Shown here in pieces: positions 39,566-47,989 of a DNA stretch of 64,000 nucleotides. Numbering within the stretch: the first letter of the stretch is position 1; each line of letters starts with the position of its first letter. The stretch is from Blastocatellia bacterium (GTDB lineage: Bacteria; Acidobacteriota; Blastocatellia; HR10; J050): the NCBI GenBank assembly GCA_025054955.1, contig JANWZE010000035.1:1-64000 (forward strand), in the 5' to 3' direction. A program made the position numbers and the translations under genes. The notes beneath the pieces were generated by a model that was given only the letters and a program-made list of their open reading frames with translations, did not search any database and had not been told where the DNA came from.

Positions 39566-40972
39566 ATGAGTGTGGCAGATGTACTGAAGTTCATGGAGGA
39601 TGAACAGGTTGAATACGTTGACGTCCGATTTACTGATTTGCCCGGTCAGTGGCATCACATGACGATTCCCAGAGAGGAAATCGGTGAAGAGGCCTTTGAA
39701 AACGGCGTTGGGTTTGACGGGTCCAGTTTGCGTGGTTGGGCTTCGATTCACGAAAGTGACATGTTGCTGCGGCTTGATCCGAGCCGCTACTGGATTGATC
39801 CGTTCATTCAGCGCAAGACGGTTTGCCTGATTGCGGATGTCATTGACCCGCTGACCAAACAAGACTACCCGCTTGATCCGCGAGGAGTCGCTCGTCGCGC
39901 CGAGGCCTACTTGCGACAAACGGGCATTGCCGACACTGTCTATTTTGGTCCCGAAGCCGAATTTTTCGTCTTCGACAAAATTTCCTATTACGCCGATGTG
40001 GACGCGGCTTGCTATAAGATTGAGAGCGCAGAAGCCATCTGGAGCAATCGCGAAAAAGGCAACGGCGGCCACCAAATCCGTCACAAGGAAGGGTATGTGC
40101 CTGTGCCACCGCTGGACACGTTACAGGATTTTCGCAGCGAAGTGGCTGAATATCTCAAACGGGTTGGCATTCAGGTAGAGTGCCATCATCACGAAGTGGC
40201 CACGGCTGGGCAGTGCGAAGTTGATTTTCGATATGCCACTCTGGTCAAGACGGCTGACAATGTGTTGCTGTTCAAATACACGGTGAAGAATTTGGCTCGT
40301 CAATTTGGTCGAACAGCTACATTCATGCCGAAGCCGATGTATGGGGATAATGGCAACGGGATGCACTGTCACCAAAGCTTATGGAAGAACGGCGAAGCGC
40401 TGTTTGCTGGCGATCAATATGCAGGTCTTTCCAAGCTGGCGTTGCACTACATCGGCGGCCTACTTAAGCATGCGCCGGCCATTGTTGCGTTTGCCGCGCC
40501 GACGACCAATAGTTATCGTCGCCTCGTGCCGGGCTTTGAGGCGCCTGTCAACTTGGCCTATTCGCGACGCAACCGCTCGGCTGCTGTGCGAATTCCTATG
40601 TATTCATCCAGTCCCAAAGCCAAGCGGCTCGAGTTCCGGCCGCCAGACCCAAGCTGCAATCCCTATCTGGCATTTGCTGCAATGCTCATGGCTGGCCTTG
40701 ATGGCATTCGCAACCAGATTGATCCTGGCCCGCCATTGGACAAAGATATTTATGACTTGAGTCCTGAAGAGCTCAAAGATGTGCCGAGCTTGCCCGGCTC
40801 ACTCGAAGAGGCGATTGCCGAGCTGGAACGCGATCATGAATTCTTGCTGGCTGGCGATGTATTCACCGAAGAACTGCTCGATCGCTGGATTGCCTATAAG
40901 AAGGAGCGTGAAATCAACGTCGTGCGCATGCGGCCGAGTCCAATCGAGTTCACGCTCTACTACGACATTTAG
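39566..40972 (+). CDS. glnA: Glutamine synthetase, type I
   Basis: 468 aa, the size of GSI-beta. Motifs: [19 protein letters not shown] (latch and substrate site), the glutamate/ammonia-site [11 protein letters not shown], and NRSAAVRIP. The adenylylation site [11 protein letters not shown] has the Tyr used for control by GlnE in GSI-beta enzymes. It makes glutamine from glutamate and ammonia. It sits behind the predicted sigma-54 promoter and activator and before gltB, so the complete GS/GOGAT route is in one place. Confidence 0.97.
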
Positions 40973-41079: not shown

Positions 41080-41289
41080 ATGGAGCGACAGTATGGCGAG
41101 ATCATGAATTTTCTTCTTGATTTTCGTGGTCGTTTTCAAACCGATGAAGATTTCCGACAATTTCTGCGAACGCAAATAAAGATGCTGGTTGACGACCTCC
41201 GCGACTTTAGTGTATTTATAACGCTCCAACCCGAATCCATCAGTCGTCAACGAACGAGCGCTCGTGGCATTGCCGGCATGATGGATTAG
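41080..41289 (+). CDS. Small protein between glnA and gltB, 69 aa
   Basis: AGGAGG precedes ATG 41080, so translation is likely. The first 40 residues form a charged helix-rich part (MERQYGEIMNFLLDFRGRF, then FRQFLRTQIKMLVDDLRDF). No known family is recognised. Its position between the two genes of the glutamine/glutamate pathway suggests a nitrogen-related role, but this is inference. Confidence 0.6.
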   Translation: MERQYGEIMNFLLDFRGRFQTDEDFRQFLRTQIKMLVDDLRDFSVFITLQPESISRQRTSARGIAGMMD

Positions 41290-41302: not shown

Positions 41303-41461
41303 ATGAGATTGAAGGCAACAACGCAACGAGACCATAGTTTGCTAGGCGAATTGTTGCCAGCGGTCGGCCCGGCGGCATGCGGCGCTTCCCTTCTGGGGAG
41401 CAACCCGACCACAGCGATTACCAAGGTAAAGGCTATCACCACCGCTGTACGCGATGGGTGA
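41303..41461 (+). CDS. Leader peptide of the gltB attenuator, 52 aa
   Basis: The ORF begins at ATG 41303 (or GTG 41291, directly after the stop of the previous gene) and ends at TGA 41459-41461. Its last part reads PTTAITKVKAITTAVRDG, unusually rich in Thr, Ile, Val and Ala, like leader peptides of threonine and branched-chain amino-acid attenuators. Its stop codon lies inside one of four mutually complementary RNA segments (see the attenuator). No good ribosome binding site is visible, so translation is inferred from the architecture. Confidence 0.5.
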   Translation: MRLKATTQRDHSLLGELLPAVGPAACGASLLGSNPTTAITKVKAITTAVRDG

Positions 41462-41535
41462 TGGCCTGAGCCGTTCAGATCAATAGGCACGAGCGGCCAT
41501 CACCCTAGTTGCAGAGGTGATGGCCGTTTTATTTT
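41431..41535 (+). promoter_or_regulatory. Transcription attenuator in front of gltB
   Basis: Four segments can pair in alternative ways: 1, GGCTATCACC (41431-41440); 2, GGTGATGGCC (41457-41466); 3, CGGCCATCACC (41494-41504); 4, GGTGATGGCCG (41516-41526). Segments 3 and 4 make an 11-bp stem followed by TTTTATTTT, a strong intrinsic terminator. Segments 2 and 3 are fully complementary and would give an antiterminator; segments 1 and 2 would free the terminator. A leader ORF runs through segment 1 and stops in segment 2. This is the trp-type attenuation layout. Confidence 0.75.
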
Positions 41536-41566
41536 GACCAAATCCGTTCTCCGGAGATCACAAACG

Positions 41567-44500
41567 ATGGTTCAGCGACAACAAGCAGATGATTCATACC
41601 AACGCTCGCTCTACGATCCACGGTTTGAACACGACGCCTGCGGTGTCGGTTTCATAGCGCATCGAAGCGGGCAACCCAGCCAGCTCATCATTCAAACGGC
41701 CGTGCAAGCGTTGGTCAATCTTGAACACCGAGGCGCGGCCGATGCGGACGCAGCCACCGGTGACGGCGCCGGTCTAATGACGCAGGTGCCTCAACGATTC
41801 TTCCGGCACGCAATAGCTGATGTGCCTCACTCTGTTCCCGACTCAACTCCGCTGATTGTCGGCATGATCTTCCTGCCGATGGAACCGACCGCCTCAGCGC
41901 AAGCGAAGCGAATCATTGAAACGGTGCTGGCGCATCGCGGATTTCGTTTGTTGCGTTGGAGAAGTGTGCCCATCAACGATGGACTGCTGGGAACAAAAGC
42001 ACGGCAAACCCAGCCCGATATTGTTCAGGTGATTGCCTTCTCGCCAACCCCGCTGTCCGGCACGGAGTTGGAACGACGCTTATTTGTAACCCGCAAACAG
42101 ATCGAGAAGGAATGGCAAGAAGCGGCGCTCCAGGGCTGTTATATCTGCTCACTCTCACACCGAACCATTGTCTACAAAGGTCTGCTGAGCGCGAGCGATT
42201 TGGCAAAATTCTATCCTGATCTGAACGACCCACTGTTTCAATCGGCGTTCGCCATCTTTCATCAACGCTATAGCACCAACACATTTCCCAATTGGTTTCT
42301 GGCTCATCCGTTTCGCATGTTAGCCCATAATGGCGAGATCAACACGATTCAAGGAAATCGCTACTGGATGCAAACGCGCGAAGCCGACCTCGACACCAGT
42401 CTGTGGCGTCATGATGCGCGCTATTTGAAACCGATCATCTGGCCGGATGGCAGCGACTCAGCCAGCCTGGATAACGCTGTCGAGTTATTGGTTCGTTCGG
42501 GGCGCAGCCTCATGCACACAATCATGATGATGATTCCCGAAGCGCATGAGCATATTCCGCAGATGGATCAGGCGCTGCGCGCGTTCTATCAATTTCACGA
42601 AGGGATGATGGAGCCGTGGGATGGACCGGCCGCGTTGGTGTTCAGCGATGGCGTGGTGGTCGGCGCAGCACTTGATCGGAATGGCTTGCGTCCATTGCGT
42701 TACCTGATCACAGACGATGGACTGGTGGTGGTTGCTTCTGAAGCCGGCGTTGTTCGGATAGACCCAGAGCACATCATTGAAAAAGGACGCCTCGGCCCCG
42801 GTCAGATGATCGCCGTTGATCTGATTGGTGGTCATGGCGTGCTGAACAATGATCAAATCAAGCACATAGTGGCGACGCATCACAATTATCAGTGGTGGTT
42901 GGAGCAAAGCCTTGTTCACTGTCCTCCCCCATCGCACACATCTGCTAGCGGCCAGCCATTAGACGATGCGGCATTGCTTCGACACCAGCGCATTTTCGGC
43001 TACTCGACCGAAGACCACAAATATATCCTGGCGCCGATGGCCCGCGAGGGACAATCACCGACGGGGTCCATGGGCGATGATACGCCGTTGACGCCGTTAG
43101 CCACCAAGCCACGCCTGCTCTATTCCTATTTCAAGCAACGCTTCGCTCAGGTGACAAACCCGCCGATTGATCCTATCCGCGAGCGGCTTGTCATGGCGCT
43201 GGAGATGCTCGTCGGTCCGTGGGGCAACGTGTTAACCGAGGGACCGCGTCATGCTCACTTGATTCGATTGCAAAGTCCTATTTTGCTGGAGAACCAGTTT
43301 ACCTGGATCAAACAACATTCGGGATTCTCCCACAAAACGCTTGATGCCACATTCGCCGTCAGCGAGGGCGCAGCCGGGCTAGAGCAAGCTGTTGATCGGC
43401 TATGCCAGCAAGCAGAAGAGAGTGTGCGCGACGGCTGGGCCTTGCTCATCATCAGCGACCGGAACATCGGACCTGAGCGGGCGCCCATCCCGATGTTGCT
43501 GGCCGTCAGCGCCGTGCATCATCACTTGATTCGTCGTTGCCTACGACTGAAAACGTGCCTCATCGCTGAATCAGGCGAGCCACGTCAAACACACGATTTT
43601 GCCTGCCTGATCGGATATGGAGCCACTGCTGTGTTTCCTTATCTGACTTATGAGGTCGTGCGATACATGGCACGCCATAATCAGTGGCCGGCCAGCGCCG
43701 CCATTGAAAAATACGTTCGCGCCATCGAAAGCGACTTGCTCAAGGTGATGTCCAAAATGGGCATCTCTACACTCAATAGTTATTGCGGCGCTCAAATCTT
43801 CGAAGCAGTGGGACTAGACCAAAGCGTCATCAATGCGTACTTCACTCACACGCCCTCGCCGGTTGGCGGCGCGCGGCTCTCGGAGATTGCCGAAGAGATA
43901 CAGCAACGGCATCGCCTTGCCTATGAGGACGCGACCAAATTGGAGGATCACGGTTACTACCGCTATCGGCGTAGCGGCGAATATCACGGCTTCAATCCCG
44001 ACGTCGTCCGTGCGTTGCACAAGGCAGCGCGCAGTGGGCGCGCAGAAGATTTTCGCGCCTATTTCGATCTCGTGTACGGCCGGCCTCCTATGGCGTTGCG
44101 CGACCTTTTGAGATTCAAGCCGACTGAGCCGATTCCGCTCGATGAGGTGGAGCCGGTTGAGCAGATCGTGACTCATTTTTGCGCGCCCGGCATGTCACTA
44201 GGCGCGCTCAGTCGGGAAGCGCACGAAACGATTGCCATTGCCATGAACCGCCTCGGAGCGCGCAGCAACAGCGGTGAAGGCGGCGAAGCCTCCAGCCGCT
44301 TTCATCCGCTGCCCAATGGCGACTCGGCCAACAGCGCCATTAAACAAGTGGCGTCAGCCCGATTTGGCGTTACGCCGGCCTATTTGGTCTCGGCCAGTGA
44401 ACTGGAGATCAAAATGGCGCAAGGCTCCAAACCGGGTGAAGGCGGGCAATTGCCTGGCCATAAGGTGTCACCAGAAATTGCCGACGTCCGTCATTGCGTG

Positions 44501-46075
44501 CCCGGCATCACGTTAATTTCGCCGCCGCCGCATCACGACATTTACAGCATCGAGGACCTGGCGCAATTGATCTTCGACTTACGACGGATCAACCCGCACG
44601 CGCGAATCGCTGTGAAGTTGGTAGCGGAAGCCGGCGTTGGTACGATTGCCGCCGGTGTAGCTAAAGCTCACGCCGACACGATTCACATCAGCGGACACGA
44701 TGGCGGGACAGGCGCCTCACCGCTCGGATCAATTAAAAACGCCGGCGTGCCTTGGGAGCTCGGACTGGCTGAAGCGCATCAAGTCCTCAGCTTGAACGGC
44801 TTACGCGACCGTGTGCGGCTGCGCGTTGATGGCGGCATGCAATCAGGGCGTGATGTCGTCATCGCAGCGATGCTGGGGGCCGATGAATATGCATTTGGCA
44901 CAGCTATGCTCGTGGCGCTCGGATGCGTCATGGCTCGTCAGTGCCATTTGAACACCTGTCCCGTTGGCGTCGCCACACAGCGCGAAGACCTGCGAGCGAA
45001 GTTTCCTGGCACACCGGAAATGGCCGTCCGGTTTATGCTGGCGGTGGCAGAGGAAGTTCGGCGACTGCTGGCGCAGCTTGGCATCCGGCGACTTCAAGAG
45101 ATTGTGGGACGAACCGATTTGCTTGAGCAAATTCCTATGAGCCCTGAAACCATTGGAGGACGACTCGATTTGAGTCGCCTGCTCTTTCCTGTTGAACACA
45201 GGCGTGGCGATAACGGCTCACATCCACGGCCTCAGACACCGTCACTGGACGACCGGTTAGCCGAGGACGCGCAACTGGCTATGAGCGCGAATCAGCCCGT
45301 GCGACTTGAATATGCTATCCAGAATACCGACCGCACGGTTGGTGCGCGGCTGGCTGGCCAGATTGCCCGCCAATGGGGCGACCGGGGATTGCCCGACGGC
45401 GCGATTGAAGTTCGCTTCACTGGCACAGCAGGTCAGAGCTTTGGCGCCTTTTGTATTCGTGGCATGCGGTTGATGCTGACCGGCGAGGCCAATGATTACG
45501 TGGGCAAATCAATGGCCGGCGGACAGATTATCATCCGACCGCCGGCCAATGCTCCATTTACTCAAGTGGCGCACACAATCATCGGCAACACTGTTCTGTA
45601 TGGCGCCACCGGTGGCGAATTGTTTGTCGCCGGTGCAGCGGGAGAACGATTCGCCGTCCGCAATAGCGGCGCTGTAGCCGTCGTTGAAGGCGTTGGCGAT
45701 CATGGCTGTGAATATATGACTGGCGGCACGGTGGTGATTCTGGGACCTGTCGGCAAAAATTTCGCTGCTGGCATGACCGGCGGCGTCGCTTACGTATTTG
45801 ACGAAGCTGATCGGCTCTTGTTCTCGTTGAATCGTGAGCTCGGCCACATCCAACGACTCACGGTGGAGGATGAGCGTCACCTGCGCTGGTTGATCGAGCG
45901 TCACGTGGCGTTGACCCATAGTCAACGCGCCACGATGATCCTGGCAACATGGGAGCAATCGCTCGCGCACTTCCGTAAAGTGACCGCGCTCATGCCGACG
46001 ACGGAATTGAAGCAAGTTCCTCAGGTTTCCCATTCGCCGCTTGCCGAGAGGCCCGCACCAGCAATAGCCGGATAA
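41567..46075 (+). CDS. gltB: Glutamate synthase large subunit
   Basis: 1502 aa. The glutamine amidotransferase nucleophile is Cys25 in HDACGVGFIA, after a 24-residue propeptide. The central domain, the FMN/synthase domain with SGHDGGTGASPLGSIKNAG, the [3Fe-4S] cysteine cluster (GCVMARQCHLNTCPVGVATQ) and the C-terminal beta-helix repeats (G..GG...) are in order. GGAG precedes ATG 41567. No small subunit (gltD) lies next to it, so reductant may come from ferredoxin or from a distant gltD. Confidence 0.95.
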   Translation: MVQRQQADDSYQRSLYDPRFEHDACGVGFIAHRSGQPSQLIIQTAVQALVNLEHRGAADADAATGDGAGLMTQVPQRFFRHAIADVPHSVPDSTPLIVGMIFLPMEPTASAQAKRIIETVLAHRGFRLLRWRSVPINDGLLGTKARQTQPDIVQVIAFSPTPLSGTELERRLFVTRKQIEKEWQEAALQGCYICSLSHRTIVYKGLLSASDLAKFYPDLNDPLFQSAFAIFHQRYSTNTFPNWFLAHPFRMLAHNGEINTIQGNRYWMQTREADLDTSLWRHDARYLKPIIWPDGSDSASLDNAVELLVRSGRSLMHTIMMMIPEAHEHIPQMDQALRAFYQFHEGMMEPWDGPAALVFSDGVVVGAALDRNGLRPLRYLITDDGLVVVASEAGVVRIDPEHIIEKGRLGPGQMIAVDLIGGHGVLNNDQIKHIVATHHNYQWWLEQSLVHCPPPSHTSASGQPLDDAALLRHQRIFGYSTEDHKYILAPMAREGQSPTGSMGDDTPLTPLATKPRLLYSYFKQRFAQVTNPPIDPIRERLVMALEMLVGPWGNVLTEGPRHAHLIRLQSPILLENQFTWIKQHSGFSHKTLDATFAVSEGAAGLEQAVDRLCQQAEESVRDGWALLIISDRNIGPERAPIPMLLAVSAVHHHLIRRCLRLKTCLIAESGEPRQTHDFACLIGYGATAVFPYLTYEVVRYMARHNQWPASAAIEKYVRAIESDLLKVMSKMGISTLNSYCGAQIFEAVGLDQSVINAYFTHTPSPVGGARLSEIAEEIQQRHRLAYEDATKLEDHGYYRYRRSGEYHGFNPDVVRALHKAARSGRAEDFRAYFDLVYGRPPMALRDLLRFKPTEPIPLDEVEPVEQIVTHFCAPGMSLGALSREAHETIAIAMNRLGARSNSGEGGEASSRFHPLPNGDSANSAIKQVASARFGVTPAYLVSASELEIKMAQGSKPGEGGQLPGHKVSPEIADVRHCVPGITLISPPPHHDIYSIEDLAQLIFDLRRINPHARIAVKLVAEAGVGTIAAGVAKAHADTIHISGHDGGTGASPLGSIKNAGVPWELGLAEAHQVLSLNGLRDRVRLRVDGGMQSGRDVVIAAMLGADEYAFGTAMLVALGCVMARQCHLNTCPVGVATQREDLRAKFPGTPEMAVRFMLAVAEEVRRLLAQLGIRRLQEIVGRTDLLEQIPMSPETIGGRLDLSRLLFPVEHRRGDNGSHPRPQTPSLDDRLAEDAQLAMSANQPVRLEYAIQNTDRTVGARLAGQIARQWGDRGLPDGAIEVRFTGTAGQSFGAFCIRGMRLMLTGEANDYVGKSMAGGQIIIRPPANAPFTQVAHTIIGNTVLYGATGGELFVAGAAGERFAVRNSGAVAVVEGVGDHGCEYMTGGTVVILGPVGKNFAAGMTGGVAYVFDEADRLLFSLNRELGHIQRLTVEDERHLRWLIERHVALTHSQRATMILATWEQSLAHFRKVTALMPTTELKQVPQVSHSPLAERPAPAIAG

Positions 46076-46198: not shown

Positions 46199-46227
46199 TT
46201 GACGAACGCATCGAATCAGCCTATCAT
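46199..46227 (+). promoter_or_regulatory. Promoter in front of the thrC leader
   Basis: TTGACG (46199-46204), 17 bases, TATCAT (46222-46227). A transcript starting near 46234 would run through the hairpin at 46329-46358 before reaching thrC. Confidence 0.5.
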
Positions 46228-46328
46228 GCAAGGCTCTTTGAAAACTTGACACGTGGCGATTTAAGGCGACTTGCTCCACGTTAAAAACTGTCTAAATAGC
46301 CCGGCGCTGTAGCCGTCTTTGCATTCCA

Positions 46329-46362
46329 AGCCCCGTGTTGTTTAGGCAGCACGGGGCTTTTG
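46329..46362 (+). terminator. Terminator-like hairpin in the thrC leader
   Basis: AGCCCCGTGTTG (46329-46340) pairs with CAGCACGGGGCT (46347-46358) with one G-U pair and a TTTAGG loop, followed by TTTGCTTTT. It lies between the promoter at 46199 and thrC. It may end gltB transcription or act as an attenuator of thrC; no alternative pairing was found. Confidence 0.7.
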
Positions 46363-46479
46363 CTTTTCACGGAGCGAGCTTCCGAGGCGCAAGATGGAGG
46401 ATGAAATGACGAGCAGTCACACTCAGCGGCGTCACACGGAAGGTGCTTCGGGCAGAGCATCGGGCCAAGGAGGAATGCT

Positions 46480-47763
46480 ATGAGTACAGTCACAGGATTG
46501 ACATGCCGGAGTTGCGGTCGGAGCTATCCGGCTGAGCCGCTCTCCATTTGCGATGATTGCTTTGGACCATTGGAAGTTGTGTACGATTATGACGCGATCA
46601 AGCGAGTGCTGTCACGCGAGGTGATTGCCGCGCGAGGTCCGAGCATGTGGCGCTATCGTGAATTATTGCCACTTGACGGCCCACCGCGTGTCGGCCTTGA
46701 AGCGGGTTTCACGCCACTTCTGCGGGCGCACCGATTAGGCGCAGCGCTCGGCCTTCGGCGATTATTCATTAAAGACGACAGCGTGTCTCGTCCATCGTTG
46801 TCGTTCAAAGACCGCGTGGTGGCCGTGTCGCTTTCCAAAGCATTGGAATTTGGTTTTGACACGGTCGGCTGCGCCTCCACAGGTAATTTAGCTAATTCGG
46901 TCGCAGCTCATGCAGCGCGAGCTGGTCTCAGGGCCTACATCTTCATTCCCGCTGATCTTGAACGAGCCAAGATCATCGGCACGACGATTTACGGCGCTCA
47001 GGTGGTTGGTATTCGCGGCAATTATGATGATGTCAATCGCCTGTGCAGCGAAATCGCTGACCGTTACCACTGGGCGCTGGTCAACGTTAACCTGCGTCCT
47101 TATTATGCGGAAGGCTCGAAAACGTTCGGATTCGAAATCGCCGAGCAACTCGGATGGCGCGCGCCTGATGCTATTGTTGTGCCAATGGCAGGTGGCGCCT
47201 TGCTAACGAAAATTCACAAGGGCTTGAAAGAACTGGAACGCATTGGCCTGATTCCCCCCTGTGCGACTCGCCTGTATGGCGCACAGGCAAGCGGCTGCAA
47301 TCCGATTACAGCGGCGGTGAAAAATCACCAATCTCGGATTCAACCGGTGAAACCTCACACCATTGCCAAATCGCTAGCCATCGGCAATCCGGCGGATGGG
47401 CTTCTGGCGGCGCAAGCGATCCGCGAATCTGGCGGCTGGTCTGAAGAGGCCACCGATGAAGAAATTCGCCAGGGCATCGCGTTGTTGTCCGAGACAGAAG
47501 GCGTGTTCGCCGAAACGGCCGGCGGTGTGACCGTCGCTGTCACCAGGAAGCTGGTCGCGCAGGGCCTCATTGGCCCAGATGATTTGACCGTCATTGCCGT
47601 CACCGGCAATGGCCTAAAAACGGCCGAGGTTTGCCAGATCAACGAGCCACGCTCAATTGACGCGAAGCTCATTCAATTTGAAGAAACATTTCGTCCCGAA
47701 AGGAGGTCTACCGTTTATGCCAAGAGTGCGCATCCTTCAACCGCTCAGGAAGTTCACTGCTGA
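46480..47763 (+). CDS. thrC: Threonine synthase with N-terminal zinc ribbon
   Basis: 427 aa. The first 30 residues form a zinc ribbon (CRSC ... CDDC). The PLP lysine is in SLSFKDRVVAVS, and the phosphate loop is CASTGNLANS. It converts O-phosphohomoserine to threonine. AAGGAGGA is 6 bases before the ATG. Its end overlaps the sulfur-carrier gene by 47 bases in another frame, a sign of translational coupling. Confidence 0.93.
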   Translation: MSTVTGLTCRSCGRSYPAEPLSICDDCFGPLEVVYDYDAIKRVLSREVIAARGPSMWRYRELLPLDGPPRVGLEAGFTPLLRAHRLGAALGLRRLFIKDDSVSRPSLSFKDRVVAVSLSKALEFGFDTVGCASTGNLANSVAAHAARAGLRAYIFIPADLERAKIIGTTIYGAQVVGIRGNYDDVNRLCSEIADRYHWALVNVNLRPYYAEGSKTFGFEIAEQLGWRAPDAIVVPMAGGALLTKIHKGLKELERIGLIPPCATRLYGAQASGCNPITAAVKNHQSRIQPVKPHTIAKSLAIGNPADGLLAAQAIRESGGWSEEATDEEIRQGIALLSETEGVFAETAGGVTVAVTRKLVAQGLIGPDDLTVIAVTGNGLKTAEVCQINEPRSIDAKLIQFEETFRPERRSTVYAKSAHPSTAQEVHC

Positions 47764-47989
47764 TTTGGAGTCCATTGATGTTGCCGGTCCAACCGTCGCA
47801 GCCGTTCTCGAAAATCTCGATCAGCAGTATCCGGGTTTTCGAGACAGACTGTTAGACGGTTCAGGCCAACTGAAACAATTCATCAATATCTACATTGATG
47901 GTGAAGACATTCGCTTTCTGGACGGACTCAACTCCATCGTCCCGGAGAAAGCTGAAATCATGATTGTACCGGCGGTGGCCGGCGGTTGA
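47717..47989 (+). CDS. MoaD/ThiS-family sulfur carrier protein
   Basis: 90 aa ending AVAGG, with the C-terminal Gly-Gly that is activated to a thiocarboxylate. AGGAGG stands upstream of ATG 47717, inside thrC. The beta-grasp pattern is clear (VRILQPLRKFT at the start, INIYIDGEDIRFLDGL). Because it is coupled to threonine synthase, which uses O-phosphohomoserine, it may feed sulfur into homocysteine or cysteine synthesis as CysO- or HcyS-type carriers do, rather than into molybdopterin or thiamine. That is inference; no adenylyltransferase gene is nearby. Confidence 0.85.
   Translation: MPRVRILQPLRKFTADLESIDVAGPTVAAVLENLDQQYPGFRDRLLDGSGQLKQFINIYIDGEDIRFLDGLNSIVPEKAEIMIVPAVAGG

Follow-up and report, generated by a model that had tools for sequence, protein, structure and literature searches.

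The stretch of DNA analysed here (the window, 64,000 nucleotides) comes from a presumed member of the Acidobacteriota, probably of the class Blastocatellia, as judged by the other genomes of its class. It carries upstream of the glutamate synthase gene gltB an element that we read as a ribosome-mediated leader-peptide transcription attenuator. It would sense threonine, isoleucine and valine, and it would be derived from, or share ancestry with, the attenuator found on the ilvB genes of the same class. We put the probability of this reading at about 0.85.

In the proposed mechanism, a scarcity of charged tRNA for Thr, Ile or Val would stall the ribosome at 41408-41449, where it would mask the first of four pairing segments. 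Segment 2 could then pair with segment 3, which would block the terminator formed by segments 3 and 4 and allow RNA polymerase to enter gltB. When Thr, Ile and Val are plentiful, the ribosome would reach the stop codon in segment 2 and occupy this segment, so that the 3:4 hairpin would form and transcription would end. Glutamate serves the branched-chain transaminase as amino donor, and its output would thereby be tied to the demand for Thr, Ile and Val. From the architecture, conservation, covariation, codon enrichment and ilvB relation that are observed, we infer stalling, termination and read-through, as well as the dominant residue among the three in the window genome.

Anatomy of the element and its upstream context

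The element lies on the + strand and is made up of, and surrounded by, the following features.

39566..40972, + strand: glnA, glutamine synthetase (TIGR00653, 661 bits), upstream of gltB; context
41080..41289, + strand: small conserved ORF of 69 aa, with its stop just before the leader start; context
41303..41461, + strand: leader peptide ORF, 52 codons from ATG 41303, with TGA 41459-41461 in segment 2
41408..41449, + strand: TTAITKVKAITTAV, putative control codons that lie ahead of segment 1 and extend across it
41423..41540, + strand: span of the end-to-end match to the ilvB-attenuator covariance model, E = 1.8e-5
41430..41440, + strand: segment 1 AGGCTATCACC, partner of segment 2
41456..41467, + strand: segment 2 (GGGTGATGGCC at 41456-41466), 5' arm of the predicted antiterminator, which holds the leader stop codon and covaries with segment 3
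41494..41505, + strand: segment 3 CGGCCATCACC(C), with segment 2 or segment 4 as alternative partners
41516..41526, + strand: segment 4 GGTGATGGCCG, 3' arm of the terminator
41527..41535, + strand: T-tract TTTTATTTT of the intrinsic terminator, directly after segment 4
41567..46075, + strand: gltB, glutamate synthase large subunit, the putatively regulated gene (NF008730 equivalog, 1813.6 bits; PF00310, PF04898, PF01645, PF01493)

An earlier reading of the sequence alone (the sequence-only reading) had proposed four mutually exclusive segments at this place, and we recovered them at the same coordinates or within 1-2 bases, with a complementarity of 10/11 for segments 1 and 2, 11/11 for segments 2 and 3, and 11/11 for segments 3 and 4. 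The intrinsic terminator that it described, with an 11-bp stem and a T-tract about 30 bases before the likely gltB ATG (41567), its 52-codon leader ORF with a stop in segment 2, and its assignment of the downstream gene as gltB were likewise borne out. The predicted energies of the window hairpins are -23.0 (1:2), -26.7 (2:3) and -26.6 (3:4) kcal/mol, and the region 41303-41560 folds with z = -4.9, with 0/200 dinucleotide shuffles being equally stable. A generic terminator scan did not call the 3:4 hairpin because its loop of 11 exceeds the limit of 8 in that tool. When the exact stem was searched in its own genome, only the gltB element and one other short hairpin were found.

The leader ORF ends in SNPTTAITKVKAITTAVRDG directly before its stop codon, and GTG 41291 is a possible alternative start. 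Its ribosome binding site is weak, as judged by eye, and no sigma-70 consensus promoter was detected before the leader. Translation of the leader may therefore depend on coupling to the upstream 69-aa ORF, and we consider such translational coupling possible. The small ORF matches no Pfam family; it is conserved between glnA and the leader in family f1 and is also found before gltB in f3 genomes.

The same surroundings could be explained in another way, in that the 3:4 hairpin might be the ordinary terminator of a glnA operon, with the leader ORF being open by chance. In line with this explanation, gltB has glnA and the small ORF before it in the same orientation, and no promoter consensus was detected ahead of gltB. 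We nevertheless judge it very unlikely, given the observations on relatives described below.

Distribution among gltB genes of the class

In our comparisons, the genome of the window is G000, while G001 and G002 belong to the same family and G003 to the same order. Scanning located the element before gltB in 13 cases, which come from families f1, f2, f4 and f5 of the same class. The gltB leaders end in KRSVTIMISAMTPGGGDG in G001, KRSVTIIISAMTPGGGDG in G002, TISVIVGITIGLITIRGSG in G003 and TGILAKRVILPSASG in G029. The f5 genomes G131, G142, G141, G078 and G157 also have a gltB element (leader example DLATVTVLISIALLVTKDST), and in G019 the element is present with a lower score. In each same-class gltB element described, those of family f8 aside, the leader stop codon lies within segment 2. 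The element is likewise present on a divergent gltB (G081, G149, G150 and G151), a second type that shares about 30% identity with the window gene. In several families of the class gltB occurs without the element. Elsewhere in the phylum, a sample of about 75 regions upstream of gltB in other classes yielded only three terminators, all weak or unrelated. In G003 and G029 the element is present with no glnA match in the upstream stretch examined, which argues against a terminator that merely serves glnA.

The genes that follow gltB differ between genomes. In G001, ilvA (TIGR01124, 858.6 bits) lies directly after gltB, in G003 this place is taken by cimA (698.4 bits), and in G019 the next gene resembles gltD by eye. 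The pairs gltB-ilvA and gltB-cimA suggest that the attenuator could place the enzyme for the amino donor and the entry step of isoleucine synthesis under joint control.

Alternative pairing and covariation

The pairing logic was examined in an alignment of 11 gltB elements (A2). The terminator helix 3:4 has a covariation score of 0.266 compared to 0.150 for shuffled alignments, and the antiterminator helix 2:3 has 0.153 compared to 0.096; in both cases 0/500 shuffles reach the score, with the caveat that related sequences can beat shuffles without structure. Both helices also exceed every slid control. Three-way changes, at a position shared by segments 2, 3 and 4, are seen in places: one such position reads G-C-G in the window and A-U-A in G001, and G157 has U-A-U where other elements have C-G-C or C-G-U. 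This covariation of segment 2 with segment 3 speaks against a plain glnA terminator. The 1:2 pairing varies between genomes: the window has a strong one (-23.0 kcal/mol), while in G157, G078 and G081 it is weak or absent.

The choice between 2:3 and 3:4 could in principle be made by a riboswitch ligand or an RNA-binding protein instead of a ribosome. A hint of this might be seen in the conserved small ORF without a Pfam family, which in f1 separates glnA from the element and in f3 precedes gltB. However, no Rfam riboswitch or leader family matches the window element at gathering score, and outside the four segments alignment A2 has no conserved aptamer-like core. Conservation concerns the leader frame, the placement of its stop codon in segment 2 and the class of codons, none of which a riboswitch would need, and we thus regard control by a ligand or protein as extremely unlikely.

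Leader reading frame and codon content

A translated leader is what the ribosome-mediated reading predicts, and the frame set by the stop codon in segment 2 has 0 stops over 34 codons in 13/13 gltB elements, with totals of 19 and 27 in the other two frames. The codon counts were taken over 17 codons (positions -20 to -4) in these 13 elements, which are partly dependent since several come from one genus. Ile, Leu, Val and Thr together make up 8.7/17 codons in the leader frame and 2.6 in the other frames (p = 1.2e-4), and the enrichment is restricted to the leader frame. Ile, Leu and Val account for 6.6/17 leader-frame codons compared to 2.1 in other frames, and Thr alone for 2.1 compared to 0.5 (p = 0.0017). 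A frame that is open in 13/13 elements and enriched in these codons is not what an ORF arising by chance before a glnA terminator would lead one to expect. Substitution counts by codon position in close leader pairs were uninformative, giving no sign of purifying selection on the whole peptide, as can be expected if few codons matter.

The sequence-only reading had looked to relatives for the leader ORF and for compensatory changes in the stems. Both were found, as the ORF is open in 13/13 gltB elements and the 3:4 and 2:3 helices covary among the 11 elements of A2, and its interpretation of the region as an attenuator is supported. The class of amino acids that it named holds as well, with one refinement. 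Across relatives Ile, Leu and Val plus Thr are enriched, whereas in the window only Thr lies above background: Thr takes 5/17 codons (binomial P about 0.004 for 5/20), and Ile and Val together take 4/17, which is not above background.

These counts might indicate that the attenuator of the window genome is threonine-specific, having shifted from an ancestral branched-chain specificity. This version of our explanation, with which it overlaps, would fit the 5 Thr codons against 4 for Ile plus Val among the 17 control codons, and also the higher share of Thr in gltB leaders than in ilvB leaders (27/221 vs 4/170 codons, p = 2.4e-4, the codons not being independent). On the other hand, segment 1 of the window and its surroundings retain Ile and Val codons, Thr codons are scarce in the gltB leaders of the close relatives G001 and G002, and pairing with segment 2 partly imposes the ATC ACC ACC run of the window. 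A further argument against it is that the adjacent thrC-like gene comes with a promoter-like site, an aptamer and a terminator of its own. We therefore consider exclusive sensing of threonine doubtful and read the window element as a mixed Thr/Ile/Val sensor.

Co-regulation of the thrC-like gene that follows gltB in the window was considered as a source of the Thr codons and was set aside. The gap between the two genes contains a promoter-like site (46199-46227), a full-length SAM-II (RF00521) aptamer-like match (46243-46316; 29.3 bits with a gathering score of 36) that is the sole one found in the genome, and a strong terminator (46328-46359) between this aptamer and the threonine-synthase-like gene (46480-47760). 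With such signals of its own, the thrC-like gene is an unlikely cause of the Thr codons in the window. Co-regulation is further disfavoured by the gene order in G001, where ilvA separates gltB from the thrC-like gene.

The threonine-synthase-like gene is followed by a gene for a ThiS/MoaD-like protein with a GG end (47657-47986), and the gene order in G001 (L349) is as in window 46199-47989. This arrangement suggests that the region serves SAM-controlled, sulfur-carrier-dependent synthesis of methionine or cysteine and not plain threonine synthesis.

Relation to the ilvB attenuator and other target genes

The ilvB genes of the class (TIGR00118) carry a branched-chain attenuator in which segment 2 and segments 3 and 4 have the same sequence as in the gltB element. 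In G000 the ilvB leader ends in LAVIIVGLINSG, with GGATGATGGC, and the corresponding leaders of G001 and G029 end in LGVIGLVIEGSG and VIALLAIVAVISIILLISGG. A covariance model built from ten ilvB elements only (R1) matches the window at 41423-41540 over its full length with E = 1.8e-5. It also matches seven other gltB elements end to end at 2.9e-5 or better, with rough, per-genome E-values of 3.7e-9 (G029), 9.9e-8 (G003), 1.5e-7 (G002), 4.1e-7 (G001), 8.6e-7 (G142), 1.9e-5 (G141) and 2.9e-5 (G157). Conversely, a model of gltB elements only (R2) matches ilvB elements with equally rough E-values of 1.5e-13 (G029), 3.2e-10 (G006), 1.2e-9 (G021) and 1.5e-8 (G000). Since an ilvB-only model finds the gltB elements, the window element appears to be the branched-chain attenuator of the class placed on gltB, and its end-to-end match is a further argument against a glnA terminator. 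Shared ancestry of the gltB and ilvB elements is the simple reading, and convergence under the constraint of the stop codon TGA TGG in a G+C-rich segment 2 is the less likely alternative.

In family f8, the gltB elements of G018, G033, G043 and G049 have a different stem, GCCTCAGCGAG, with a leader stop past segment 2 in most, and they were excluded from the statistics. The gltB (L015, L018, L020, L021) and ilvB (L243, L247, L248) attenuators of this family have another stem, CTCGCTGAGGC and CTCGCCGGGG, and a leader stop past segment 2. As the change of stem is common to both genes, the gltB element here is similar to the ilvB element found in the same lineage.

The scaffold is also found before other genes. 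It precedes cimA (citramalate synthase, TIGR00977) in f3 genomes and G078, ilvE (TIGR01122) in G143, and a second ilvE-like gene in G133; like those of ilvB, the cimA and ilvE elements have Ile/Leu/Val leaders. In G086 the same scaffold lies before pheA (chorismate mutase/prephenate dehydratase; L343, G086:C79:19856-19964) with the leader FFRTFGFYYFYLLDG, apparently as a Phe/Tyr attenuator. With a shared scaffold and codons that fit the pathway, pheA provides a positive control within the data set. Together, ilvB, cimA, ilvE, gltB and pheA would form a small regulon whose leader codons would tell which amino acid is sensed. Upstream of leuA, considered as a further target, no terminator was found in 11 loci. 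Outside the class, the R1 matches examined lie at ilvB-type genes and one prephenate dehydratase, and none of the listed R1 matches falls at the gltB places found there.

A small cupin gene recurs as the first gene behind these attenuators. In G003 (L007) it lies between the attenuator and gltB, giving the order attenuator-cupin-gltB-cimA. In all three genomes of family f1 (L337:1485-3044 on G000:C56, L338 and L339), a Leu-rich attenuator, LINLVLTPLLGLLLGIILLVLARGSG, stands before two genes, one for a small cupin and one of the menaquinone-biosynthesis type (PF02621).

The probable ilvB parentage, the gltB-ilvA and gltB-cimA operons and the control signals of the thrC-like gene itself were absent from the sequence-only reading. 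Collectively, our results lead us to lean, by somewhat better than even odds, towards a scenario in which a branched-chain attenuator was moved onto gltB within the class, including the divergent gltB type (about 30% identical), and gained Thr codons. It would form a unit of amino donor plus isoleucine pathway, in which the nitrogen supply is set by the demand for Thr, Ile, Val and Leu without a regulatory protein.

Comparison with known systems

Branched-chain leader-peptide attenuators of the ilvGMEDA type occur in enterobacterial ilv operons. Leader-peptide attenuators are also described for corynebacterial ilvBNC (PMC11857589, PMC10272879). The window element shares with the ilvB/ilvGMEDA-type attenuators a stop near or in segment 2 and an antiterminator and terminator that exclude each other; a leader rich in Ile, Leu and Val is shared by the gltB elements taken as a set. 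The window element differs from them in that its predicted target is gltB and not a gene for the carbon skeleton, in the extra Thr codons, in a leader that starts closely behind the stop codon of a small ORF, and in the phylum. Within open-licence papers, the novelty relative to known ilv-type attenuators would thus lie in the target gene, the codon mix and the phylum. In such papers we found no report of leader-peptide attenuation of gltB or glutamate synthase; a subscription paper could exist. A survey of attenuators found associated functions for almost none of those predicted in Acidobacteria (PMC2965389), and the present element offers a likely function for such attenuators.

With thrL (Rfam RF00506) the element has in common Thr and Ile codons before segment 1, whereas the gene that would be regulated here is gltB. 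Among Rfam families, only Thr_leader RF00506 aligns with an E-value of 5 or less. The alignment covers the whole family model at 41415-41533 and scores 14.2 bits (E = 4) compared to a gathering score of 55, so by this score the element is not a member of the family. The E. coli trp attenuator has the same four-segment logic of 1:2, 2:3 and 3:4 with a leader peptide, while the window element has no Trp codons and differs in sequence and target.

In E. coli, Lrp exerts leucine-responsive control of gltBD. Glutamate synthase is linked to the state of the branched-chain amino acids in both cases; however, Lrp is a DNA-binding protein, whereas the window element would act by transcription attenuation, and a link that E. 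coli leaves to a protein would here be RNA-based. Leader-peptide attenuators are known from genes for making the sensed amino acid itself; the one on gltB would act a step to the side of that pathway, on the provision of the amino donor.
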